Source: a virus
Virus record (IMG/VR): IMGVR_UViG_3300020472_000163
Span: 1-24,155 of that record
Reading direction: 5' to 3' (one strand)
Length of the DNA: 24,155 nt
Part shown: one piece after another, positions 3,849-23,248 of the stretch
Position numbering within the stretch: position 1 is the first letter of the stretch
Layout of the letters: every line of letters starts with the position of its first letter
Program-made: the position numbers and the translations under genes
The notes under the pieces: generated by a model
Databases searched by the model: none
What the model was told of the DNA's origin: nothing
Seen by the model: the letters and a program-made list of their open reading frames with translations, nothing else

Positions 3849-5072
3849 TTACTTTTTGAGGATCAAATCCGTCATGTTGCCAAAATCTAGCCCAACTTTA
3901 GTGTTCACCTTGAAGGTACCGAACTCGGTTTGGCTAAAAAGGTTAATAAGTTCTGGTATCATTTTTCGTTCTCCATAGGCAAGGTCGATGACGATTGAAT
4001 CATGAAGTGTGAAAGCGATTCGGCTTCTGTAGTTTCTAAGATGGTTATGGACTTCAATGAGTCTCCGGAGGGTAACATCCACGCAACTAGACTGAATAAT
4101 GTAACTGAGAGAATGATGATGGTCGCTAGGAATGGTCCGTCCGAATCGTGTGGAGACATGTGTGCCGGTCCAATGCGAGCTAATAATTCTCTCTCTTCGG
4201 TACGTTTCTTCCAGTAGTTTTTCCACAGACCCATCATTAATACCTAGTGTGCCGGTGACGTTTTTTCTACCGTATAACCAAGCAAAGATTCTGCGCTTCG
4301 CCTCTTGCCTATCAATGTCACCAAAGATATTCTCTATATTCCACTGATGAATGTCAATGTCGGGCTGTTCTTGCCCTGCCAAAGCCAAAGCCACACGTAG
4401 TTCAGCAGCGTTGTAATCTAGCTCCAAAAACCAGTCATTGTTGGGCTTAACCACCGAACGATACTGCTTATCGAGCGTTAGTATTGGAAAGCTGCCCGGC
4501 ACGTTCGTCAAGCGACCGGTTTTAGTACCCCATATGTTATAACGACAGTGGGATGAATACTTCTGAAGGTTCTTTACAAACTTTCGCGTAGAAGCCTTGT
4601 GGTAGATGGGGCGAATGCCTTCCATGTTGAGGGTCAATTCATTATACCGAATATCATCGAGCGTCACTCTTAGCTGCTTGATGAAGTCATAGTTGTCAGG
4701 CTTCTCATAGCTGTCGAATACGTGTTGCGTGATCTTGTTCTTAACCTCACAATAGTCCAATAGAAATTGGCGGGGTACAAGATCGAAGAAACAATTCTCG
4801 TCCAACGAAACCTTGGCGAACCCGAAGGAGCGATAGTACGCTTTCAGCTTATCCCTCACGCCTTCCCACTGCGTGCGCAAATGCGGCGGACATACTTGAT
4901 CCAATGACATGCCTCCGCAATAAAGCTTGGCATATTCTATATCAGTGTCCTGCAAAAACGTGCTGTAGTCCCATGTCTGCGACAATCCTGTGGGGATGGT
5001 GTCGTGTATGAGTTCACCGTCCACATAGACGCCTACGCAGTCCTTCTTATCATCGAGAGTTTGAAATAGCAA
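3849..5072 (-). CDS. family A DNA polymerase, polymerase domain only
   Basis: All polymerase signatures of the PolI family are visible in 407 aa. TKTGRL is at 183-188. Motif A is LELDYNAAELRV with Asp219, followed by DIH around 239-241. Motif B is RQEAKRRIFAWLYG (255-268), with Lys259, Phe263 at the Pol I Phe762 position, and Tyr267. IQSSCVDVTLRRL is at 326-338. Motif C is LHDSIVID with Asp358. It should extend DNA using Asp219 and Asp358 as the metal-binding pair. There is no 3'-5' or 5'-3' exonuclease domain; the roughly 150 residues before the palm are not exonuclease-like. The only bacterial-type start in the open frame before conserved sequence is TTG at 5072, with AAGG 7 nt upstream. 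The frame is open further, overlapping the 611-aa gene, without a better start. The gene lies 13 nt after the 611-aa gene. Confidence 0.93.
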   Translation of the reverse strand: MLFQTLDDKKDCVGVYVDGELIHDTIPTGLSQTWDYSTFLQDTDIEYAKLYCGGMSLDQVCPPHLRTQWEGVRDKLKAYYRSFGFAKVSLDENCFFDLVPRQFLLDYCEVKNKITQHVFDSYEKPDNYDFIKQLRVTLDDIRYNELTLNMEGIRPIYHKASTRKFVKNLQKYSSHCRYNIWGTKTGRLTNVPGSFPILTLDKQYRSVVKPNNDWFLELDYNAAELRVALALAGQEQPDIDIHQWNIENIFGDIDRQEAKRRIFAWLYGRKNVTGTLGINDGSVEKLLEETYRRERIISSHWTGTHVSTRFGRTIPSDHHHSLSYIIQSSCVDVTLRRLIEVHNHLRNYRSRIAFTLHDSIVIDLAYGERKMIPELINLFSQTEFGTFKVNTKVGLDFGNMTDLILKK

Positions 5073-10827: not shown

Positions 10828-13800
10828 CTAGAAGCCCTTTAGTCCATGCTTACTATCGATTGCTGCATCAACCGCTCTCGCAAATTCATCACCATCAATA
10901 TTGAGAACAATATCTTGACCAGACTTGCCGCCCTTGCCGCCGGCACCCTTACCGCCGCCGATGACCTCTCGGAGAGCTTGCACGAATGCGTCCTTGTCTG
11001 CAGATTTCATGTGCCGCTGGGCTTTGGCATAATCTCTTGCCGCAACAGCCATGCCTTTAACGTTGTCTACGTGTTCTGGCTGTAGATGTATAGCCGAATC
11101 TATAAGACCAACCATCGAGTCTGCGGCAACACTAAATGCCACCGTCTTTGACTCTGGCAGTTTGTGCAGAGCCCAAGCAAGCCACAAGATTCCCCATCCC
11201 AACTCTCTCAGTACCTTCGCAACACCCTTCAGATCCGTAAAGCCGGTAAGCCCTTGGGTCAAAGCTCCGAGAGCCGTAGCATTTTCTGGCGGGATTCGGC
11301 TCAAGGCATCGGCGAATGAAGATAGAGCCTTTCTTAGTGTCTTCAATCCTGTGCTCATAAAGGGCATCGACGCGGCAAAGCCAAGCTTGAGCAAGCCCCA
11401 AGCCAACGTTGGTAGCGCCCAGCCGAGTTGTATGAAGCCCATCGCCAACATGCCGAAACCCTTTGCGTGGGGAAGAATCATTGCCAAGGTTTCACCAAAA
11501 TATCTAAGCGGCAGATTCAGTGCCAACAAAGCGATTGCCATCATAATGCCGCCGAAGAACATCGGAACACCTGCAGCCAACAGCGCCCAGCCAGCCGGCA
11601 TCATCCACGACGCAAATTCATAAAAGTCCTTTCCTAGCTGCGGAAGGTACCCAAGAGTATAGTCTGTGACCCATGGTTGTACGCCTAGCCACAAGTACGC
11701 CAATCCAGCAGCCGTCATGACGGCGCCGAACATAAAAGCGACTCCGCCGATAAGCAGTGCCCAGCCTGCAGGGAGCATTGCCCAGCCGAACGCACGGAAG
11801 TCTTTCCCTAATTCTGGCAAGAACCCTAACTCATAATCTGCCCACGGCTTTACACCCCAATGTAGTACGTGAAGTCCAAGCGCTGCCGCCGTAGCACCGA
11901 GCATAAATGCGCCGCCGCCAATCGCCAGAGACCAGCCAGCGGGAATCAGTGCCCAGCCAAATGCGGCAAGGACAATGGCAAGAGGAATCAGGACATCTAC
12001 ATAATCTTCAAATGCGGATACGCCCTTCGCCAGTAGGAGCAGACCTAAGCCCAAGACTCCAACTGCGAGACCGACCTGCATTGCGCCGGCGAAGACAAAC
12101 TTGCCAGCGATCTCCAGTAAGATACCCAAGACTATAAGACTGCCAACCATCATGAGAATGCCGTCCCACGTTACATCATTAAACTGTTTGACTCCCATGC
12201 CCAAAAGCAGTAAGCCTATGCCCAAAACACCCACAGCCAAGCCAACCTTCCAAGCTGCAGTTTCCATAAACTTTGCAGCAACCTTGAGTAAGACACCCAT
12301 AAGGATAAGACTAACGATCATAAAGCCAATTGCTGGCCAAGTTACATCATTAAACTCTTTGACACCTTTGCCTAAGAATATCAGCCCGAGCCCTAAGACT
12401 CCGACTGCGAGCCCCACTTTCCACGCGCTATCATTAAGAAACTTGGAAACAATCGCAAGACCGATACCGAAAGCGATCAGTGAAACGAGAGCAATCATCA
12501 TTGCGCCGGGCATATCATCCCCAATGAACTGCTTGATCCCTAAGCCCAGCAGATACAAAGCAATGCCAAGCCCCAGCAATGCCCCGATCATCTGAGGCAA
12601 CACCGGTGTCAACAATCCCATAGGTTTTATCGCGAGTGTCAATACCCAAAAGAAGCCCACAATCGCCAGCCCTAGAATTGGCAGACCGACAGAGACAAGA
12701 CCAATAAACGCAGCTAGACCTACCAAGGCTGGCATAATAGCCTTGGGCATCTCTAAGAATGCAAGGACCAATTCTTTAAGTGACCAGATGATCACTGCAA
12801 CAAGAATTATCGGAGCCGCCACAGCGAGAGCTAGTCCCATCAGTGCCATGCCCAACGAGAAAATCGCCGGCAGATATTTGGTTGCAGCTTTACCAATCGC
12901 CTTAATGCCTTTAGCCAGAGCCTTTGATGCTGGCGCACCTGCGGCGGCTGAAGTTGTCTGAGTGTTCTGAGCTATGCTAAGCCAGCCTGTCACTTTAGTC
13001 AGTGCTGCTTTGACCCCCATTTCTGATAACATTTGGGAACTCATTATGCTGCTCCAAGTCCAATTAAGCACTTTCATTTTCTTCAGCAACATGTAGGCAG
13101 CGCCGAGACCGATTAAGGTCGGGATAAGCATGCCGCCCGTCATATCATTCAATGCCAAAAAGCCATCCAACAATCCGTGTACAAAACTCAGGATAGGCTG
13201 GACAGCTACGGCAAACTGCTCAAAGATGCGCTTAAGTTTGTCTTGCGCTGATGTTGCTGCTGCCGCACGTTCTTCTAACTTCTTTTGTGCTTCGGCATTG
13301 TCTTCAACCTTCCGCTGTTGTTTATCATATTCAGCTAGCGTCGTGCCAAAAACCTTATTCGCCTCGGTCATGTCTGAGATACCTGCTGCATTTGCAACAG
13401 CCATCTTTTCAAACTTGTTCATGCTGTCCCAACTCTTGCCAGACAACTGAATAGATTGAATCAGCAATCGGATTCTTTCTTCTTCCGAAGCGTTCAGAAG
13501 ATCCATAGAATTCAGAACGCCGCCGCCTAGGACTGAGTTCAGTTTACCGGCAGCATTCGCGGCTCCTTCAAACGTGTCGAACTGAGTAGTGATACCCAGA
13601 AGAGCTTTCATTTCAATACCAGTAGCCTTAGCTGCTGCGGCAACTTCTTTAAAAACCTTTGTTGCTTCATCGCCATAAGCTGTAAACACGGATGCGTTCG
13701 CTTCAAAGTCTTTCGCGATCTTTCCTGCGCTAACGCCAAGGTCAGCAGCCATTGCAGCAAAATCCTTTTGAACCTTTATCGCTTGCTCTGCGGACATGCC

Positions 13801-14670
13801 AAGAGCTTTATTAAGGATCTCCATGTTCGCCGCTGTTGTCTTGGTGTCAATACCCAGAGCGTTCAACTGTGCCGTCGCTTCGACCAAGTTGCCCTGTGCT
13901 TCCTCGGTCATCTCTGTGAATTGGCTCATTTCCGTATACAGGTCACCGACAGCTTCGCCAGCAACTTCCATGCTCACGTTCCACTCAGCATTATTCTGCA
14001 TGGTGTTCATGATCATGTCGTTGTACTCACCGGTACTGTTGGTAAGCTGGTTGGTCTTGGCAAACTGAGCGTCTGCTGCCCAAACCATTGCCACGGTCGC
14101 CTCTTGTACCTTCATCAGTGACGAACCAAGTATGTTCGCGGCACTAAACTGATCGACCAATGCCTGTCTTGTTCTCTCTAGGTTCTCTTCAAAGTCGCCC
14201 TGAAAGAATCTGCCAATGGTGGTGCCCTTCCACGCTCCACTGACGCCCGTAATCGCCTTGGCAGCTTTCTGAGCGCCGGCGGCTGATGCATCTGCAGCCT
14301 CGTTCTTCTCCCACTCAGCATCGACTTGTTGGAGCGTGCGTTCGTACTCCTCTTGGCTCATCGCGCCGGAGGCTCTATCGCGCTTTGCCTGCTGGCGCTG
14401 AATTTCGAGTCTCTTTTTTTCAGTCTGATATGTATTAGCTGCCCACTGCCCTGCTTCTTTAGCTTTGTCGGCGTTGGCTGTGAGGTGATCGTGCTGTTGT
14501 TGCAAATAGCCTACATGCTGCTGGGCAGCATTTGCGGCAGCAACTTGCGCCTGCGTCATCTTCTGGATCGCAGCGGTAATTTCGGCAACAGTCTTGCCCA
14601 TCGCGGCGAGGCTCGTCGCCATGCCCTTTAGCGCTTTTGGATCTAAACCCTTTGTCGGATCGTCAGACAT
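10828..14670 (-). CDS. tail tape measure protein
   Basis: The 1280-aa product is the longest in the window and lies after the chaperone pair, the canonical tape-measure place. Residues 1-135 are a Gln/Ala-rich helical coiled-coil region. Residues 150-500 are amphipathic helices with many Ala, Met and Glu. From 510 to about 1100 it is extremely hydrophobic, with Trp and Gly at regular positions and an approximately 57-residue repeat. The end is a Gly/Lys linker followed by DIVLNIDGDEFARAVDAAID, a common tape-measure C-terminus. It would span the tail tube lumen, set tube length and probably insert into the host membrane. By the rule of about 0.15 nm per residue the tail would be near 190 nm, roughly twice T4. 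The start MSDDP has AAGGAG 13 nt upstream, a long spacing; no better start is seen. Confidence 0.92.
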   Translation of the reverse strand: MSDDPTKGLDPKALKGMATSLAAMGKTVAEITAAIQKMTQAQVAAANAAQQHVGYLQQQHDHLTANADKAKEAGQWAANTYQTEKKRLEIQRQQAKRDRASGAMSQEEYERTLQQVDAEWEKNEAADASAAGAQKAAKAITGVSGAWKGTTIGRFFQGDFEENLERTRQALVDQFSAANILGSSLMKVQEATVAMVWAADAQFAKTNQLTNSTGEYNDMIMNTMQNNAEWNVSMEVAGEAVGDLYTEMSQFTEMTEEAQGNLVEATAQLNALGIDTKTTAANMEILNKALGMSAEQAIKVQKDFAAMAADLGVSAGKIAKDFEANASVFTAYGDEATKVFKEVAAAAKATGIEMKALLGITTQFDTFEGAANAAGKLNSVLGGGVLNSMDLLNASEEERIRLLIQSIQLSGKSWDSMNKFEKMAVANAAGISDMTEANKVFGTTLAEYDKQQRKVEDNAEAQKKLEERAAAATSAQDKLKRIFEQFAVAVQPILSFVHGLLDGFLALNDMTGGMLIPTLIGLGAAYMLLKKMKVLNWTWSSIMSSQMLSEMGVKAALTKVTGWLSIAQNTQTTSAAAGAPASKALAKGIKAIGKAATKYLPAIFSLGMALMGLALAVAAPIILVAVIIWSLKELVLAFLEMPKAIMPALVGLAAFIGLVSVGLPILGLAIVGFFWVLTLAIKPMGLLTPVLPQMIGALLGLGIALYLLGLGIKQFIGDDMPGAMMIALVSLIAFGIGLAIVSKFLNDSAWKVGLAVGVLGLGLIFLGKGVKEFNDVTWPAIGFMIVSLILMGVLLKVAAKFMETAAWKVGLAVGVLGIGLLLLGMGVKQFNDVTWDGILMMVGSLIVLGILLEIAGKFVFAGAMQVGLAVGVLGLGLLLLAKGVSAFEDYVDVLIPLAIVLAAFGWALIPAGWSLAIGGGAFMLGATAAALGLHVLHWGVKPWADYELGFLPELGKDFRAFGWAMLPAGWALLIGGVAFMFGAVMTAAGLAYLWLGVQPWVTDYTLGYLPQLGKDFYEFASWMMPAGWALLAAGVPMFFGGIMMAIALLALNLPLRYFGETLAMILPHAKGFGMLAMGFIQLGWALPTLAWGLLKLGFAASMPFMSTGLKTLRKALSSFADALSRIPPENATALGALTQGLTGFTDLKGVAKVLRELGWGILWLAWALHKLPESKTVAFSVAADSMVGLIDSAIHLQPEHVDNVKGMAVAARDYAKAQRHMKSADKDAFVQALREVIGGGKGAGGKGGKSGQDIVLNIDGDEFARAVDAAIDSKHGLKGF
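11491..12603 (-). repeat. about 57-residue tandem repeat within the tape measure gene
   Basis: The anchor Gly in G-V/I before an aromatic recurs at residues 711, 769, 826, 883, 939 and 996, with a degenerate copy near 1053. The spacing is 56-58 residues (about 171 bp). Two adjacent copies share WKVGLAVGVLG and FNDVTW almost exactly, at 750-778 and 807-835. Each unit is a long hydrophobic helix pair separated by an aromatic turn. Confidence 0.8.
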
Positions 14671-15081: not shown

Positions 15082-15118
15082 TAAAAAAGAAAAAGGACCG
15101 GGTTTTAAGCCCGGTCCT
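15082..15118 (-). terminator. strong rho-independent terminator after the chaperone genes
   Basis: GGACCGGG (15095-15102) and CCCGGTCC (15110-15117) form a perfect 8-bp GC-rich stem with a 7-nt loop, and A15094/T15118 can extend it. On the minus strand it is followed by TTTTTCTTTTTT. It lies 18 nt past the stop of the chaperone extension. Confidence 0.9.
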
Positions 15119-15135: not shown

Positions 15136-15438
15136 CTACGGTTTCCGTACGCTAGGCATGCTAGGTCTGCTCATAGAAGGCATGCTGGAGGAACCCTTTT
15201 GATTGGATTTCTTCATCTGTTCTGCTTCATCTTTAAACTGCTTCTGCAGGCGTTCCATGAACCAATGGCGTAGTTTTACTGGGAGGTTATATGCCTCGAT
15301 GAAACTCCATCCACCATGATACTTGAGCAGGAAAAAACACTCATACACTTGTGACATGTACTCATGACTTAGGCCAAAAAAAGTCCGCTGTAAACGGAAC
15401 CTCCATTTCTTGAGAATATCCACACTCAACGCACTCAA
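15136..15438 (-). CDS. tail assembly chaperone extension (T part of G/GT), probably made by frameshift
   Basis: This frame overlaps the end of the 302-aa gene by 77 nt and runs 79 codons past the T7 run. It has no convincing start of its own. The only early candidates are TTG codons near 15438 buried in the upstream gene and an ATG lacking any ribosome binding site. The unique part has a helix YMSQVYECFFLLKYHGGW, then SFIEAYNLPVKLRHWFMERL and a Lys/Gln-rich helix, ending in a Ser/Met/Pro tail. The E-x-x-x-L-P-x-x-x-R-x-W-F motif is what I know from second ORFs of tail-chaperone pairs. Fused to the first 298 codons of the upstream frame it gives a protein of about 377 aa. Its place between tube and tape measure is that of G/GT proteins, which load the tape measure during tail assembly. 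Confidence 0.7.
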   Translation of the reverse strand: MSALSVDILKKWRFRLQRTFFGLSHEYMSQVYECFFLLKYHGGWSFIEAYNLPVKLRHWFMERLQKQFKDEAEQMKKSNQKGSSSMPSMSRPSMPSVRKP

Positions 15439-16270
15439 AGTGTTGTCTGAGATCGTGGTTTGGCATCAGCGCCTGATACGCTGTTCTTAGAAACCGAGAA
15501 TCGGCTGCTGGCATTGCGTTTACAAAGCCGTGTACGTGCTGCATTAGGGAGCTACCATTAACAGCCGTGATATATGTTCGCATCTGATCGGTCATCTGCG
15601 TGTCGTGACCAAGAAGGTTGGTTCTTGTCGTCTTAGCGTTGGCTTTTCTCATGCTATCGGCAAGTGCGGTCTCGTCGCGACCATTCATCAAACGAACAGT
15701 GACAGTAACCTCGGACTTGGGCAAGACAATATTAAACGTGTTGTCCTCGTTCCTTGTTACTGCATCGCTGTACTCTTCGGCGGCGAAGTACTCTGTGTCG
15801 AAGCCAGTTGAGACTCCTTCCGACAAGCTAAACTCGTACTCCTGTGCTGTGGCACATGCGGGGCACGTTGTCTTTGTCTTATACTCCTCGCCGTAACCAG
15901 AAATACGTGCTGAAACAAGAATAGCATTCTTGTCGCCGGTTAAAAGGTCATCGACCTTAACACGCTTGTCAACAATAATGTTCTGCAAGAACCTATTGAT
16001 GGCTACCCCCTTCTTCAAGAGAGCGCGTGATGTAAGAATGTCTTCATCCTTGGCAGTCATGTACTTAATCTCGATGGTTTCAGCACCGCAAAGTGGGTGC
16101 CCCTCGGGATAGTACCTTCCTGCCGTGGGGAGTTCGACAAACTCGGTTGGGACTACAAAATTTAATTGTCCCGCTGATTGTTGAGTAGGCTGTGTAGCCT
16201 GTTGAGTTGCGGCTGATGCATCGGGGTTTTCCCGTGCGCCAGTACGCTCGTCGTTATTACGACCTGACAT
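15362..16270 (-). CDS. T4 baseplate-type protein / tail assembly chaperone (G-like)
   Basis: The 302-aa product starts with a Gln/Thr-rich disordered stretch (1-35). It continues with PTEFVELPTAGRYYPEGHPL (41-60) and EIKYMTAKDEDILTSRALLK (67-86), the opening pattern of the T4 baseplate protein family (T4 gp26 relatives, Pfam T4_baseplate). Two CxxC pairs, Cys136/Cys139 and Cys280/Cys283, could bind one zinc ion. The protein would act in the cytoplasm during tail or baseplate assembly. In its place between the tube and tape-measure genes it is the counterpart of the G tail chaperone. The start ATG at 16270 has GGAGG 5 nt upstream. Its last codons contain the T7 slip site. Family assignment is by recall; the exact role (hub subunit or chaperone) is uncertain. 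Confidence 0.82.
   Translation of the reverse strand: MSGRNNDERTGARENPDASAATQQATQPTQQSAGQLNFVVPTEFVELPTAGRYYPEGHPLCGAETIEIKYMTAKDEDILTSRALLKKGVAINRFLQNIIVDKRVKVDDLLTGDKNAILVSARISGYGEEYKTKTTCPACATAQEYEFSLSEGVSTGFDTEYFAAEEYSDAVTRNEDNTFNIVLPKSEVTVTVRLMNGRDETALADSMRKANAKTTRTNLLGHDTQMTDQMRTYITAVNGSSLMQHVHGFVNAMPAADSRFLRTAYQALMPNHDLRQHFECVECGYSQEMEVPFTADFFWPKS
15376..15382 (-). other. T7 slippery run, candidate programmed +1 or -2 frameshift site
   Basis: In frame 0 the minus strand reads GAC TTT TTT TGG CCT AAG TCA TGA. The extension frame reads GGC CTA AGT from 15375, one base forward. A +1 slip (skip one T) or a -2 slip (re-read two) joins the two; a -1 slip hits TAA at once. No other homopolymer of this length is present in the 77-nt overlap. 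Confidence 0.65.
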
Positions 16271-16335
16271 TAATCCTCCAATGTGGTATTAGTATACAAT
16301 ACTTAGTCAGTTTATTAAAATGTTTTTGTCATCTT

Positions 16336-16926
16336 TTAAGGTGCGGTTGAGCGAGTCGTGCTTCTCCAGCCTGCGCCGCCTGCAGCGTCACCAGCGTCTG
16401 GTCCACCAAGCTCTGCCCAATCGTAACGAACCTTAACAGTAATCTCTACGATATCATCAGACTCATAATCAAGATCACCGAATGTGACTTCCTTGATCCA
16501 TGCGTTCTTGAGATACCATGTCTCGATTGCTGTAACGTCTTCGTTACCATCGCCACCAGCAATCTGCTGGATAGTAAGTCCACCAAGAGCAGCTACTGCC
16601 GACTCTTTCGTGATGGTTTGAGCAGCATGTGCTGCGGTGTCAGGAAGCTTATAGCCTGACATGTCGATGATCTTCAAAATGTTGTGTGCTGCATCCGGAG
16701 TAACAGGATCAACAAGTGTGAATTCGACTTCATTGTACTCTACTCGTCCCGGGTAATAGAATGAGTGGTTGATATAGCTATGCTTCACCTCCGATACTGT
16801 GAAAGTGGGCTTAGTTACCTTCTTAATGATCCAAGCTGGGATCTCGCCAACCTCCGAACTGATGCTGAGTAGCCACCTAAATTTTCTTTTAGGCTCGGTT
16901 GTGCTCACGCTCCAAAAATCTGCCAT
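16336..16926 (-). CDS. tail tube protein
   Basis: The 196-aa product directly follows the sheath gene. It starts with KRKFRWLLSISSEVGEIPAW, the strand pair that begins T4 gp19-like tube proteins, and contains TVSEVKHSYINHSFYYPGR (42-60). Strands such as VEYNEVEFTLVDP and DIVEITVKVRYDWAEL complete the tube beta-barrel. It polymerises as stacked hexamer rings around the tape measure and forms the DNA channel inside the sheath. T4 gp19 is 163 aa; the extra length is a loop near 95-125 and a short disordered C-terminus. The ATG at 16926 has GGAGG 9 nt upstream. A terminator-like hairpin separates it from the sheath gene, so sheath and tube may be made in different amounts. Confidence 0.93.
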   Translation of the reverse strand: MADFWSVSTTEPKRKFRWLLSISSEVGEIPAWIIKKVTKPTFTVSEVKHSYINHSFYYPGRVEYNEVEFTLVDPVTPDAAHNILKIIDMSGYKLPDTAAHAAQTITKESAVAALGGLTIQQIAGGDGNEDVTAIETWYLKNAWIKEVTFGDLDYESDDIVEITVKVRYDWAELGGPDAGDAAGGAGWRSTTRSTAP

Positions 16927-20227: not shown

Positions 20228-23200
20228 TCAGATCAAGTAGTATACGCGAAGGATATCATCGCCATCGAGCTTAAGATCGGGGTGGAGTTCCACAGAGCCA
20301 GTTGCAATGGTGTAATCACCAGCAGCCAAGCTTGCGCCGGGCATAAGCATCTGACCGTTCAAGAATACCATCTCGCTTCCAGTTACAGCGTTCGCGCCAC
20401 AAACGTAAACGCCAGTAGCAGAAGTGTAGTTGTGACCAGAGGATCCGATAACAGTATCGATAACGGAGTCAACCTTAAACTGACCGGAGACACTGGCAAT
20501 ACCATCACCAGCTTGGAAGTCAGAAAGAACAGAAACATCCATTCTCTTGAGCGTTCCGCCGTCTGATACCATAAGCTCATCAGTTGCTGTAAGACCAGAT
20601 GCAAGAGCAGTCTGAGCAGAAATAGCATCTGTGTTAAGCATTGAGCCTTCGACAGCATTAGCTGCGATTGTCACAGCGCCGGCGTTAGACATGGTAACAT
20701 CACCACTAACAGCAACGAGAGTACCAACGTTTGAACCATTACCAACCATGATCTGACCAGCAGTCACGGCTTCCATCTTGCTATAAGCAATGGCTGCATT
20801 TGAAGCAACCGAAGCGTTGACAACAGCGTTAGCAGCCAACTCGTCAGCACCAACAGCGTCGTCGGCAAGCATGCTGTTTTCAACAGCGCCTGCAGCGATT
20901 GTTAAAGCACCGCCAGCAGCGACAGTAGCATCACCTGAGATGTTGCCGAAGATTGAATCCTCAAAGTTTGAGAACGTAACCTTCTTAACAGTACCGGGAC
21001 CATCATCAAGCATCAACAAGTCAGCTTGAGCAACAGCAGCACTACCGAGAGCAGCTTGACCAGAGATAATATCTTCAGCAAGCATGCCGTGCTCAACAGC
21101 ACCAGCAGCAATAGTAACAGCACCGTTGTTCGCCATAGTAACATCACCACTGATAGCTACAGGGTTGTAGCTAGTGCCATCTGCAACAAGCATAAAGCCT
21201 GAAGTATTGGTATTCATGATAAGATCATCACCAGTAATGGTAAGATCGCCAAGAACAGTTACGTTACCAGCGCTGGTGATAGTAAGCGGACTTACTCCAC
21301 TGCCGTGACGAATTTCGTATTGGGCAGCATTTTGGAGAGCAACCATCGACCAACGGTCGGCGGCGTCATCTGCATCATCAGCGCAAAGGTTAATAGTTGC
21401 GTTCTGACCTTCAACACCGAACACTTGGAACGGGTCAGGACCATGAACAAGCATACCGTTAGAAGCGGTAATTTGCGAAAGGAATGTAGAAACATCAGCA
21501 CTAGAATCACCAGCAGTGACAGAGCCAGAAACCCGAAGGTAACCAGAAGTCTCAATACCAGCGGTCGAATAGTGTCGAGCAGAACCGGAAACACCAGACT
21601 CCGCCCAAACAGCCTTGCTACCGTCCCAAGAGAGGGCATAGTTAGCGGTGGGTGAAGATTGACCAATCTTAGTAACGTGACCAGATCCGTCAAAGGTGAA
21701 AGCAGCAGTACCGCCCCCTTCCTTAAGCGAACCACCATCATCGATAGTAATATCACCAGTCAACGAGAGGTTACGCATACCAGCGGTGTCAGCGTTGCCA
21801 TCAAGGACAACAGCCTTGCTAGCAGCAGCCGTACCAGCAGCAGCACCATCAACATAACCAATCTCTGCATCGGTAAGAGCAGTGAGAGTGGTCAACTTAG
21901 CAGCAGTGACAGAAGCGCCAGCGCCATCAAGTTTATTAAGCTCTGCTGGGGTTGAACTGATCGCCGTAGTCGAAGCAGCAGCAAATGGAATCAAGTAACC
22001 AGACTGGTTCGCAATCTGAACGGTGTGGTCGGCAGTTGGATCAACCGCTTTAAGGGTTGTTTCGTTACCGTCATCGCTAGTGCCCTCAAAGATAACACCA
22101 TTGGCGGTGTTAACCACTTCAACATCAACTGTCGTTGTGGTACCAGTCACGATAAGGTTACCGGGAATGGTGACTCTGGAGTTAGCACCGGCACCGATTG
22201 TTACATCGATTTCGCCGTTAGCATCGCCATCTGAGAGAGTGAGACCGGCAGTTGCCGTACCATCATGCTCAGCAACGAAGAATTCCAACTCACCGCCTTC
22301 GGCACCATTGCTGGCATCAGAGACAGAAGCTACAATCTTAGCGAAGAGAACCTGATCTTGGTTGTCATCATCTGCATAGAACTCAATCTGACCAGCAACG
22401 TCGTTATCAGCGCCGGCTGCACCCTTGTCTTTGACAAAGCGCAAGCGAGCACCATTGGCGTCGTTTGTGGTGTTCTTGAGAATAACGAGAGGATCTGCTG
22501 AGTTAGCAGAGCCCACCTCAAAGGTATCAGCGCTGACTTCGACAGTTGTAGCTGCCAATTCAATCTCTGTACCTGCGGCAATGGTGAGTTCTCCCGACCC
22601 GTCAGCGGAAATGCTTTCGCCACCGCCAGCGTCATAGAAAGAAATCTTAGTGCCGTCACCAGCGAGAACGAGTTCATCGCCAGACTCATCCCAGAGCAAG
22701 TATTTGCCGGATGTTGCACCGAACATCTTAACATCTACACCAGTGTCGTTGACACCGAAAGTGGTAGCGCCGTCAATCTGAACAACGCCATCAATGTCTA
22801 CAGCATCGAGGTTTGTGGTTCCGTCGATATCGCAATCTCCACTTACGTCGAGAGAGCCAGCATCGAGTTCCCCTGTGAGAGTGATGTTGCGGAAAGAAGC
22901 TGCATCTTTGTTGCCATCGACAACAACAGCTTTTGAAGCCGCAACGGTACCGGCAGTCACACTGTCCAACACTCCAATCTCAGCAGCACTGATCGTAGTG
23001 CTATCGATTGTAAGGCTGGTGTTAACCGCTAAAGTACCTTCAATATTTGTATTATTATAAAGTTGAATCTTGGAACCCTCATACGAAATGCTACCGCCAT
23101 CGTAAAAGGATAATGTTCCTACGCTACTCACTGAGCCCGATTCCATGCTCATACCACCAGTATAAATACCTTGGGCGAATTTCGCCGTGGTGGAGTTTGA

Positions 23201-23248
23201 ACCAGAAAAGTGCGACAGTGCGTGCGCATTTACTAAAGTACGTGCCAT
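20228..23248 (-). CDS. repetitive tail-fibre/adhesin-like structural protein (1006 aa)
   Basis: The product is rich in Ala, Gly, Thr and Asp with almost no Cys or Trp, typical of trimeric beta-structured fibres. Repeat modules are visible. AEIGVLDSVTAGTVAASKAV (from 89) recurs as AEIGYVDGAAAGTAAASKAV (about 460). A SGDVTMANNGAVTIAAGAVE-type unit recurs near residues 700, 768 and 846. VDVEVVNTANGVIFEG resembles modules of structural proteins from marine phages. The C-terminus (about 930-1006) ends MVFLNGQMLMPGA, then DYTIATGSVEL, then GDDILRVYYLI. This domain is shared in outline with the protein at 23769. It probably decorates the tail or virion and contacts the host surface. ATG at 23248 has AGGAGG 8 nt upstream; another ATG 4 nt earlier is in a different frame. 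Confidence 0.85.
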   Translation of the reverse strand: MARTLVNAHALSHFSGSNSTTAKFAQGIYTGGMSMESGSVSSVGTLSFYDGGSISYEGSKIQLYNNTNIEGTLAVNTSLTIDSTTISAAEIGVLDSVTAGTVAASKAVVVDGNKDAASFRNITLTGELDAGSLDVSGDCDIDGTTNLDAVDIDGVVQIDGATTFGVNDTGVDVKMFGATSGKYLLWDESGDELVLAGDGTKISFYDAGGGESISADGSGELTIAAGTEIELAATTVEVSADTFEVGSANSADPLVILKNTTNDANGARLRFVKDKGAAGADNDVAGQIEFYADDDNQDQVLFAKIVASVSDASNGAEGGELEFFVAEHDGTATAGLTLSDGDANGEIDVTIGAGANSRVTIPGNLIVTGTTTTVDVEVVNTANGVIFEGTSDDGNETTLKAVDPTADHTVQIANQSGYLIPFAAASTTAISSTPAELNKLDGAGASVTAAKLTTLTALTDAEIGYVDGAAAGTAAASKAVVLDGNADTAGMRNLSLTGDITIDDGGSLKEGGGTAAFTFDGSGHVTKIGQSSPTANYALSWDGSKAVWAESGVSGSARHYSTAGIETSGYLRVSGSVTAGDSSADVSTFLSQITASNGMLVHGPDPFQVFGVEGQNATINLCADDADDAADRWSMVALQNAAQYEIRHGSGVSPLTITSAGNVTVLGDLTITGDDLIMNTNTSGFMLVADGTSYNPVAISGDVTMANNGAVTIAAGAVEHGMLAEDIISGQAALGSAAVAQADLLMLDDGPGTVKKVTFSNFEDSIFGNISGDATVAAGGALTIAAGAVENSMLADDAVGADELAANAVVNASVASNAAIAYSKMEAVTAGQIMVGNGSNVGTLVAVSGDVTMSNAGAVTIAANAVEGSMLNTDAISAQTALASGLTATDELMVSDGGTLKRMDVSVLSDFQAGDGIASVSGQFKVDSVIDTVIGSSGHNYTSATGVYVCGANAVTGSEMVFLNGQMLMPGASLAAGDYTIATGSVELHPDLKLDGDDILRVYYLI

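Follow-up and report, generated by a model that had tools for sequence, protein, structure and literature searches.

How two overlapping reading frames between the tail tube and tape-measure genes of a virus are turned into protein is the question raised by a 24-kb IMG/VR virus fragment, the whole of which (24,155 nt) is referred to here as the window. The tail genes described here all lie on its minus strand, in the order sheath, tail tube, ORF1, overlapping extension, small ORF, and tape measure (Table 1), and ORF1 and its extension thus occupy a G/GT-type position. The original prediction held that the two frames are a tail-chaperone pair joined by either a +1 or a −2 frameshift at a run of seven T residues.

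Table 1. Features of the tail locus in the window.
Feature	Coordinates	Strand	Basis or remark
Tail sheath	20029-17027	−	1000 aa, very long
Tail tube gene, upstream of ORF1	16336-16926	−	PHROG 4542 tail tube, E 9e-25
GGAGGA, ribosome-binding-like, for ORF1	16274-16279	−	by eye
ORF1, predicted short chaperone form (TAC-N, "G"), 302 aa, T4 gp26-type	15362-16270	−	PF12322, PHROG 150
T7 run TTTTTTT	15382-15376	−	sequence
Predicted shift site TTT TTT TGG	15374-15382	−	P-site TTT 15379-15377, A-site TGG 15376-15374
+1-frame extension (TAC-C, "T"), 79 codons	15139-15375	−	stop 15138-15136
ATG in extension frame, 4 nt past ORF1 stop	15355-15357	−	possible independent start, unconserved
Small unassigned ORF	15066-14701	−	between extension and tape measure
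Tape-measure gene, downstream	10828-14670	−	PHROG 167, E 3e-12

Three further features of the window are recorded here. A GC-rich, terminator-like inverted repeat followed by a T run, seen by eye on the minus strand at 15082-15118, lies between the extension stop and the small ORF and tape-measure gene. A 407-aa ORF at 3849-5072, whose residues 171-399 match DNA polymerase family A (PF00476, E 2e-13), adjoins tail and baseplate genes. The region 20228-23248 encodes a 1006-aa protein that has no Pfam match and looks repetitive by eye.

The end of ORF1 reads GAC TTT TTT TGG CCT AAG TCA TGA, placing its stop codon 14 nt past the T7 run, exactly as originally described. The −1 frame past the run reads TTG GCC TAA and closes after two codons, confirming that a −1 slip would terminate at once, and the locus is therefore not of the X_XXY_YYZ −1 type. 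In the +1 frame, GGC CTA AGT continues for 79 codons, and translation of the joined frames yields a predicted fusion of 377 aa with DFFG at the junction, the size that had been anticipated. For the extension alone, prediction gives three helices with low confidence (mean pLDDT 63.8), and its consensus among relatives is GLSxxYxExVYEQFFxLKYHGGWSFxEAYNLPVxLRxWF. A tblastn search with the extension among phages returned a single record, Mel-JY01. A Pfam match to DUF6760 (E 0.012) falls below the cut-off and is not relied on.

ORF1 belongs to the T4-baseplate family, matching PF12322 (T4_baseplate) with an E value of 1.2e-11 and 45.1 bits against a curated cut-off of 24.5, as well as PHROG 150 "baseplate hub" (E 8.8e-16). 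It harbors a CxxC...CxxC metal site (C136, C139, C280, and C283), the four cysteines of which are invariant across 39 aligned rows. The fold predicted for ORF1 alone has a mean pLDDT of 85.1, and "baseplate hub" and "baseplate hub assembly" proteins are among the best matches of this model to viral models. In a VIA-align comparison against solved structures from listed families, a ranking that leaves families absent from the list in play, the HK97 tail assembly chaperone (TAC) comes first (Z 5.3, rmsd 4.4, 84 aligned), followed by YqbN (Z 5.1, rmsd 6.8, 91 aligned), which we take to be a prophage tail chaperone. Both alignments cover residues 28-128 of the model; a Z of about 5 is modest, and the next row has a Z of 3.5. 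A sequence search of solved structures with ORF1 gives no match up to an E value of 1, and Foldseek against the PDB gives nothing under 0.001, with the HK97 TAC third at 1.3.

A T4-baseplate-type protein in this position had been set apart from a lambda-type G. The family assignment stands, yet it is no oddity, because the gp26/gp51 family is itself the tail-assembly-chaperone family of T4. Both T4 proteins match PF12322 over their first 200 residues, and gp51 is about 48 residues longer. On the 282 positions of PHROG 150, T4 gp26 spans 14-235 and gp51 spans 13-280, while gp26 of cyanophage P-SSM2 spans 5-232 and its 57-residue "gp51" covers 239-278. The PRFect paper (PMC10885494), citing Vladimirov 2022, gives T4-like phages two chaperone genes, one short and one long; these are taken to be gp26 and gp51, because both match PF12322 and gp51 bears the extension. 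Two separate PF12322 genes of this kind are absent from the relatives G001 (187 kb) and G002 (184 kb), each of which has a single match against two in T4; the window itself is only a 24-kb fragment.

A further arrangement is found in cyanophages. S-PM2, P-SSM2, and S-RIM2 each have one PF12322 gene, whose end reads NNT TTT TTC NNN stop and whose extension is in the −1 frame; S-RIM2 lacks an ATG for the second part. The T TTT TTC heptamer is present in all 73 distinct relatives of P-SSM2 gp26, although the codon before it varies (AGT in 63, AAT in 6, GCT in 3, and TCT in 1). The joined cyanophage protein aligns to T4-type gp51 through the junction (probability 99.2, E 9.8e-20), and T4 gp26 aligns with the marine fusion, that is, the joined protein of the window type, only up to the site (probability 95). 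The marine extension matches the cyanophage extension (probability 66, E 5.5e-5), which in turn matches the C-terminus of gp51 (probability 97). A direct match between the marine extension and the gp51 C-terminus is lacking (probability 0.1), the link running only through cyanophages, and this lack counts as a point against the present reading.

The comparison of homologues proposed in the original prediction bears on whether the two frames are joined. The first locus set, in which the ORF1 stop and the overlapping frames were located, comprises the window and 84 of 86 other loci, two having run off their contigs. A first survey of 248 loci with a forward match left 156 distinct sequences with a stop and 120 nt of flank, and a second survey of 86 matches left 71, with 4 truncated; the two were merged on a 330-nt key into 219 distinct sequences. 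Of these 219, 147 have the conserved C-terminal piece in the +1 frame and 72 in the −1 frame; none has it in frame past the stop. The extension profiles in both surveys were built from the longest open frames of an earlier subset, such that independence from that choice holds only for the additional cyanophage loci, the L277-L356 set, and L273-L276. A mixed alignment of whole and partial rows (A1) misplaced segments and is not used.

Selection follows the same boundary. In the extension frame, pN/pS is 0.106 downstream of the site but 2.55 upstream of it (257 non-independent pairs); the values for ORF1 in the same pairwise analysis are 0.14-0.22. The +1 frame is under strong purifying selection, and behaves as protein, only past the site, because pN/pS is low downstream and high upstream. 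Judged from these sequences, the join between ORF1 and its extension is not a chance one, and the claim of a tail-chaperone pair joined by frameshifting is strongly supported by the conserved phase, the selection, and the site.

The −1 cases consist of 70 cyanophage-type sequences and two others. L112 reads GAT TTT TTT TGG CCA AGT CAA TAG and has U UUU UUU, with CCAA where the CCTAA of its relatives supplies the −1-frame stop, and its extension lies in the −1 frame. L112 is the same virus sequence as L113, to which it is identical over 700 nt; this one sequence, found in two contigs, is a hint that the direction may have flipped within a +1 clade through the gain of U_UUU_UUU and a one-base change that abolished the −1 stop. 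In L087, from the huge uncultured phage LR756511, the extension is likewise in the −1 frame; there is no T-run and an ATG stands at the ORF1 stop, which suggests a separate gene or another route.

The nucleotides at the junction are themselves constrained. At 80% nucleotide identity the loci form 98 clusters, 97 of which have a recognized site, YTT followed by TGG or TAC; L084 is without one. The codon before the A-site UGG or UAC, that is, the P-site codon, is TTT in 96 clusters, CTT in 1, and never TTC, even though TTC accounts for 27% (262/964) of the other Phe codons. The codon preceding it is TTT in 91, TTC in 3, and CTT in 3. The chance values for this Phe-codon bias (6e-14 and 9e-10) treat the clusters as independent, which overstates significance, and serve as a guide only. 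In 10 of the 97 clusters, a stop just upstream in the +1 frame keeps that frame closed until 5 nt before the P-site codon, which leaves about 20 nt for the shift. No downstream RNA structure stands out against mononucleotide shuffles (mean z −0.55; 6 of 48 below −2). Of 48 clusters, 46 have Shine-Dalgarno (SD)-like stretches that begin 21-37 nt ahead of the run and 2 have none, unlike the arrangement in prfB. Both observations weigh against the shift proposed here. As a separate observation, the −1 frame past the run (15368-15376 in the window) stops after exactly two codons in 83 of the 97 clusters; this could limit the products of backward slips or could merely follow from the codons of ORF1 and the extension.

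The direction of the shift is indicated by those lineages in which the run is broken. On TTTTTTT itself, both +1 and −2 movements can re-pair, such that a −2 shift as in phage Mu, in which the P-site UUU re-pairs two bases back to give DFFFG, fits the intact run. It also fits the TTT bias of the upstream Phe codon (91 TTT versus 3 TTC, or 91 of 94 Phe codons), as the run is longer than a +1 slip on UUU-U needs. However, the +1 phase is kept with TTC TTT TGG (3 of 98 clusters), with TTT CTT TGG (1 of 98), with TTC TTT CGT in L085, and with TTT CTA in L084. In these lineages a −2 movement places the tRNA on UCU, UUC, or worse, and mismatches would be needed, whereas a +1 movement gives UUU or UUC. 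On these sequences +1 is favored over −2, because it alone serves as a single mechanism for all lineages, including the broken-run ones; the choice left by the original prediction is narrowed to +1, and a −2 shift is improbable. The conservation of T runs beyond what +1 slippage needs could alternatively reflect transcriptional slippage, in which RNA polymerase loses one U or inserts two extra while copying the run and the fusion is made from part of the mRNA. That the phase is kept with only four consecutive T residues (TTCTTTTGG) or a broken run (TTTCTTTGG) makes this quite improbable.

Two explanations dispense with a shift altogether. The second frame could be a separate protein of about 73 aa made by coupled translation from the ATG at 15357, which stands 4 nt past the ORF1 stop of the window and is a point against a fusion; the annotations of P-SSM2 and S-PM2 list its counterpart as a "gp51" of its own that has an ATG. 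The original statement that this frame lacks a start and a ribosome-binding site survives in its second half, with no SD-like stretch seen by eye before the ATG, but fails in its first, as TTG and GTG codons occur upstream in addition to the ATG. Among relatives, however, an ATG occupies this position in only 35 of 77, no ATG, GTG, or TTG exists between the upstream stop and 14 codons past the site in 5 of 77 loci, 22 of the 71 loci in the second set have no possible start codon, and selection acts on the frame and the site. An independent start may operate in some phages, yet on this distribution it cannot be the general route, and a separate protein in place of a fusion is very unlikely, more so than either slippage alternative. 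The remaining explanation is that a one-base indel, in a pseudogene or through sequencing error, has split a single gene; homopolymer runs are error-prone, and some relatives (T4 gp51) have an in-frame long form. Separate contigs and isolates show the same phase (147 distinct sequences), and the distance of the ORF1 stop from the P site takes three different values among relatives; this effectively refutes the indel.

The best explanation is thus that the short and long forms of a tail chaperone are produced by +1 slippage at the T7 run in a marine contractile phage of the PF12322 type, a forward counterpart of the backward shifts of many phages, a reading to which we assign a probability of roughly 0.8 from sequence comparison. 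Most ribosomes would terminate at the TGA, producing the 302-aa short form. A minority, we infer, would slip while the Phe tRNA occupies the P-site UUU and UGG waits in the A site, moving from UUU-U to U-UUU. Translation would then resume at GGC CUA and yield the 377-aa form with its helical C-terminal extension. Roles modeled on lambda G/GT would have the short form coat the tape-measure protein and the extension bring in tail-tube subunits.

The proposed system shares features with several known ones. Lambda G/GT and the HK97-type TAC are alike in their position between tube and tape-measure genes, in having a short form with a frameshift extension, and in the slippery run that lies close to where the short gene ends, and the HK97 TAC is the nearest solved fold to the ORF1 model; they differ in using −1 rather than +1, and ORF1 is larger and carries the PF12322 metal site. 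T4 gp26/gp51 belong to the same family, gp26 ending where ORF1 ends and gp51 being gp26-like with a C-terminal extension, but they are encoded by two genes rather than joined by a frameshift. The cyanophages (Kyanoviridae), with gp26 and a 58-aa "gp51," likewise have one PF12322 gene and an overlapping-frame extension at a T-run; in contrast, their phase is −1, their T TTT TTC is invariant, and an ATG for the second part persists in most of them. In bacterial prfB, CUU UGA similarly combines a pyrimidine-UU P site that slips to UUU with UG opening the A-site codon, and two relatives read CUU UGG. However, prfB has a stop codon in the A site where ORF1 has the sense codon UGG, and it has an SD-like stretch close to the site, which ORF1 lacks. 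The predicted +1 site of L085 (Streptococcus phage GXN1, 4700-4729), TTC TTT CGT, is close to UCC_UUU_CGU, which a paper title names as the shift site of influenza PA-X.

Parts of this picture are already in print. A review states that G/GT in different phages uses −1, −2, or +1 and that the tail-chaperone shift of the myovirus HSTV-2, an archaeal virus, is very likely +1. The phage data used to train PRFect include, by its own count, 350 forward sites, such that +1 tail-chaperone shifts are already known from these sources. A 2016 review describes G-T frameshifting as conserved in long-tailed phages "except T4," and later work accounts for T4 by its two genes. PolyT −1 signals in T4-like TAC-N genes appear in a paper citing Vladimirov 2022 (PMC12846349); with the short and long genes also in print, T4 gp26/gp51 as a G/GT pair was dropped as a novelty. 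A literature search of sources other than Vladimirov 2022 returned no +1 form, UUU-UGG site, or coexistence of +1, −1, and two-gene arrangements in the T4-baseplate-type family, and the +1 result may already be given, in part or in full, in Vladimirov 2022.

The +1 slippage proposed for the window may also operate in phages of Microcystis, Flavobacterium, Listeria, and Streptococcus. Existing annotations overlook or divide this part of the gene. The extension piece is a separate hypothetical protein in the Microcystis phage Mel-JY01, is reduced to a 111-nt hypothetical gene in the Flavobacterium phage immuto, and is unannotated in the Listeria phage LIS04.

We give somewhat better than even odds to the joint proposal that a single chaperone family reaches its long form at the same point of the protein by +1 slippage (UUU-UGG or similar), by −1 slippage in cyanophages, and by duplication in T4, with a flip in L112, and that UUU-UGG is a sense-codon +1 site without an evident stimulator. 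If true, this would provide a simple, testable +1 site that does not involve a stop codon, and it would mean that the output of short and long chaperone is conserved in the family while the decoding mechanism is interchangeable.
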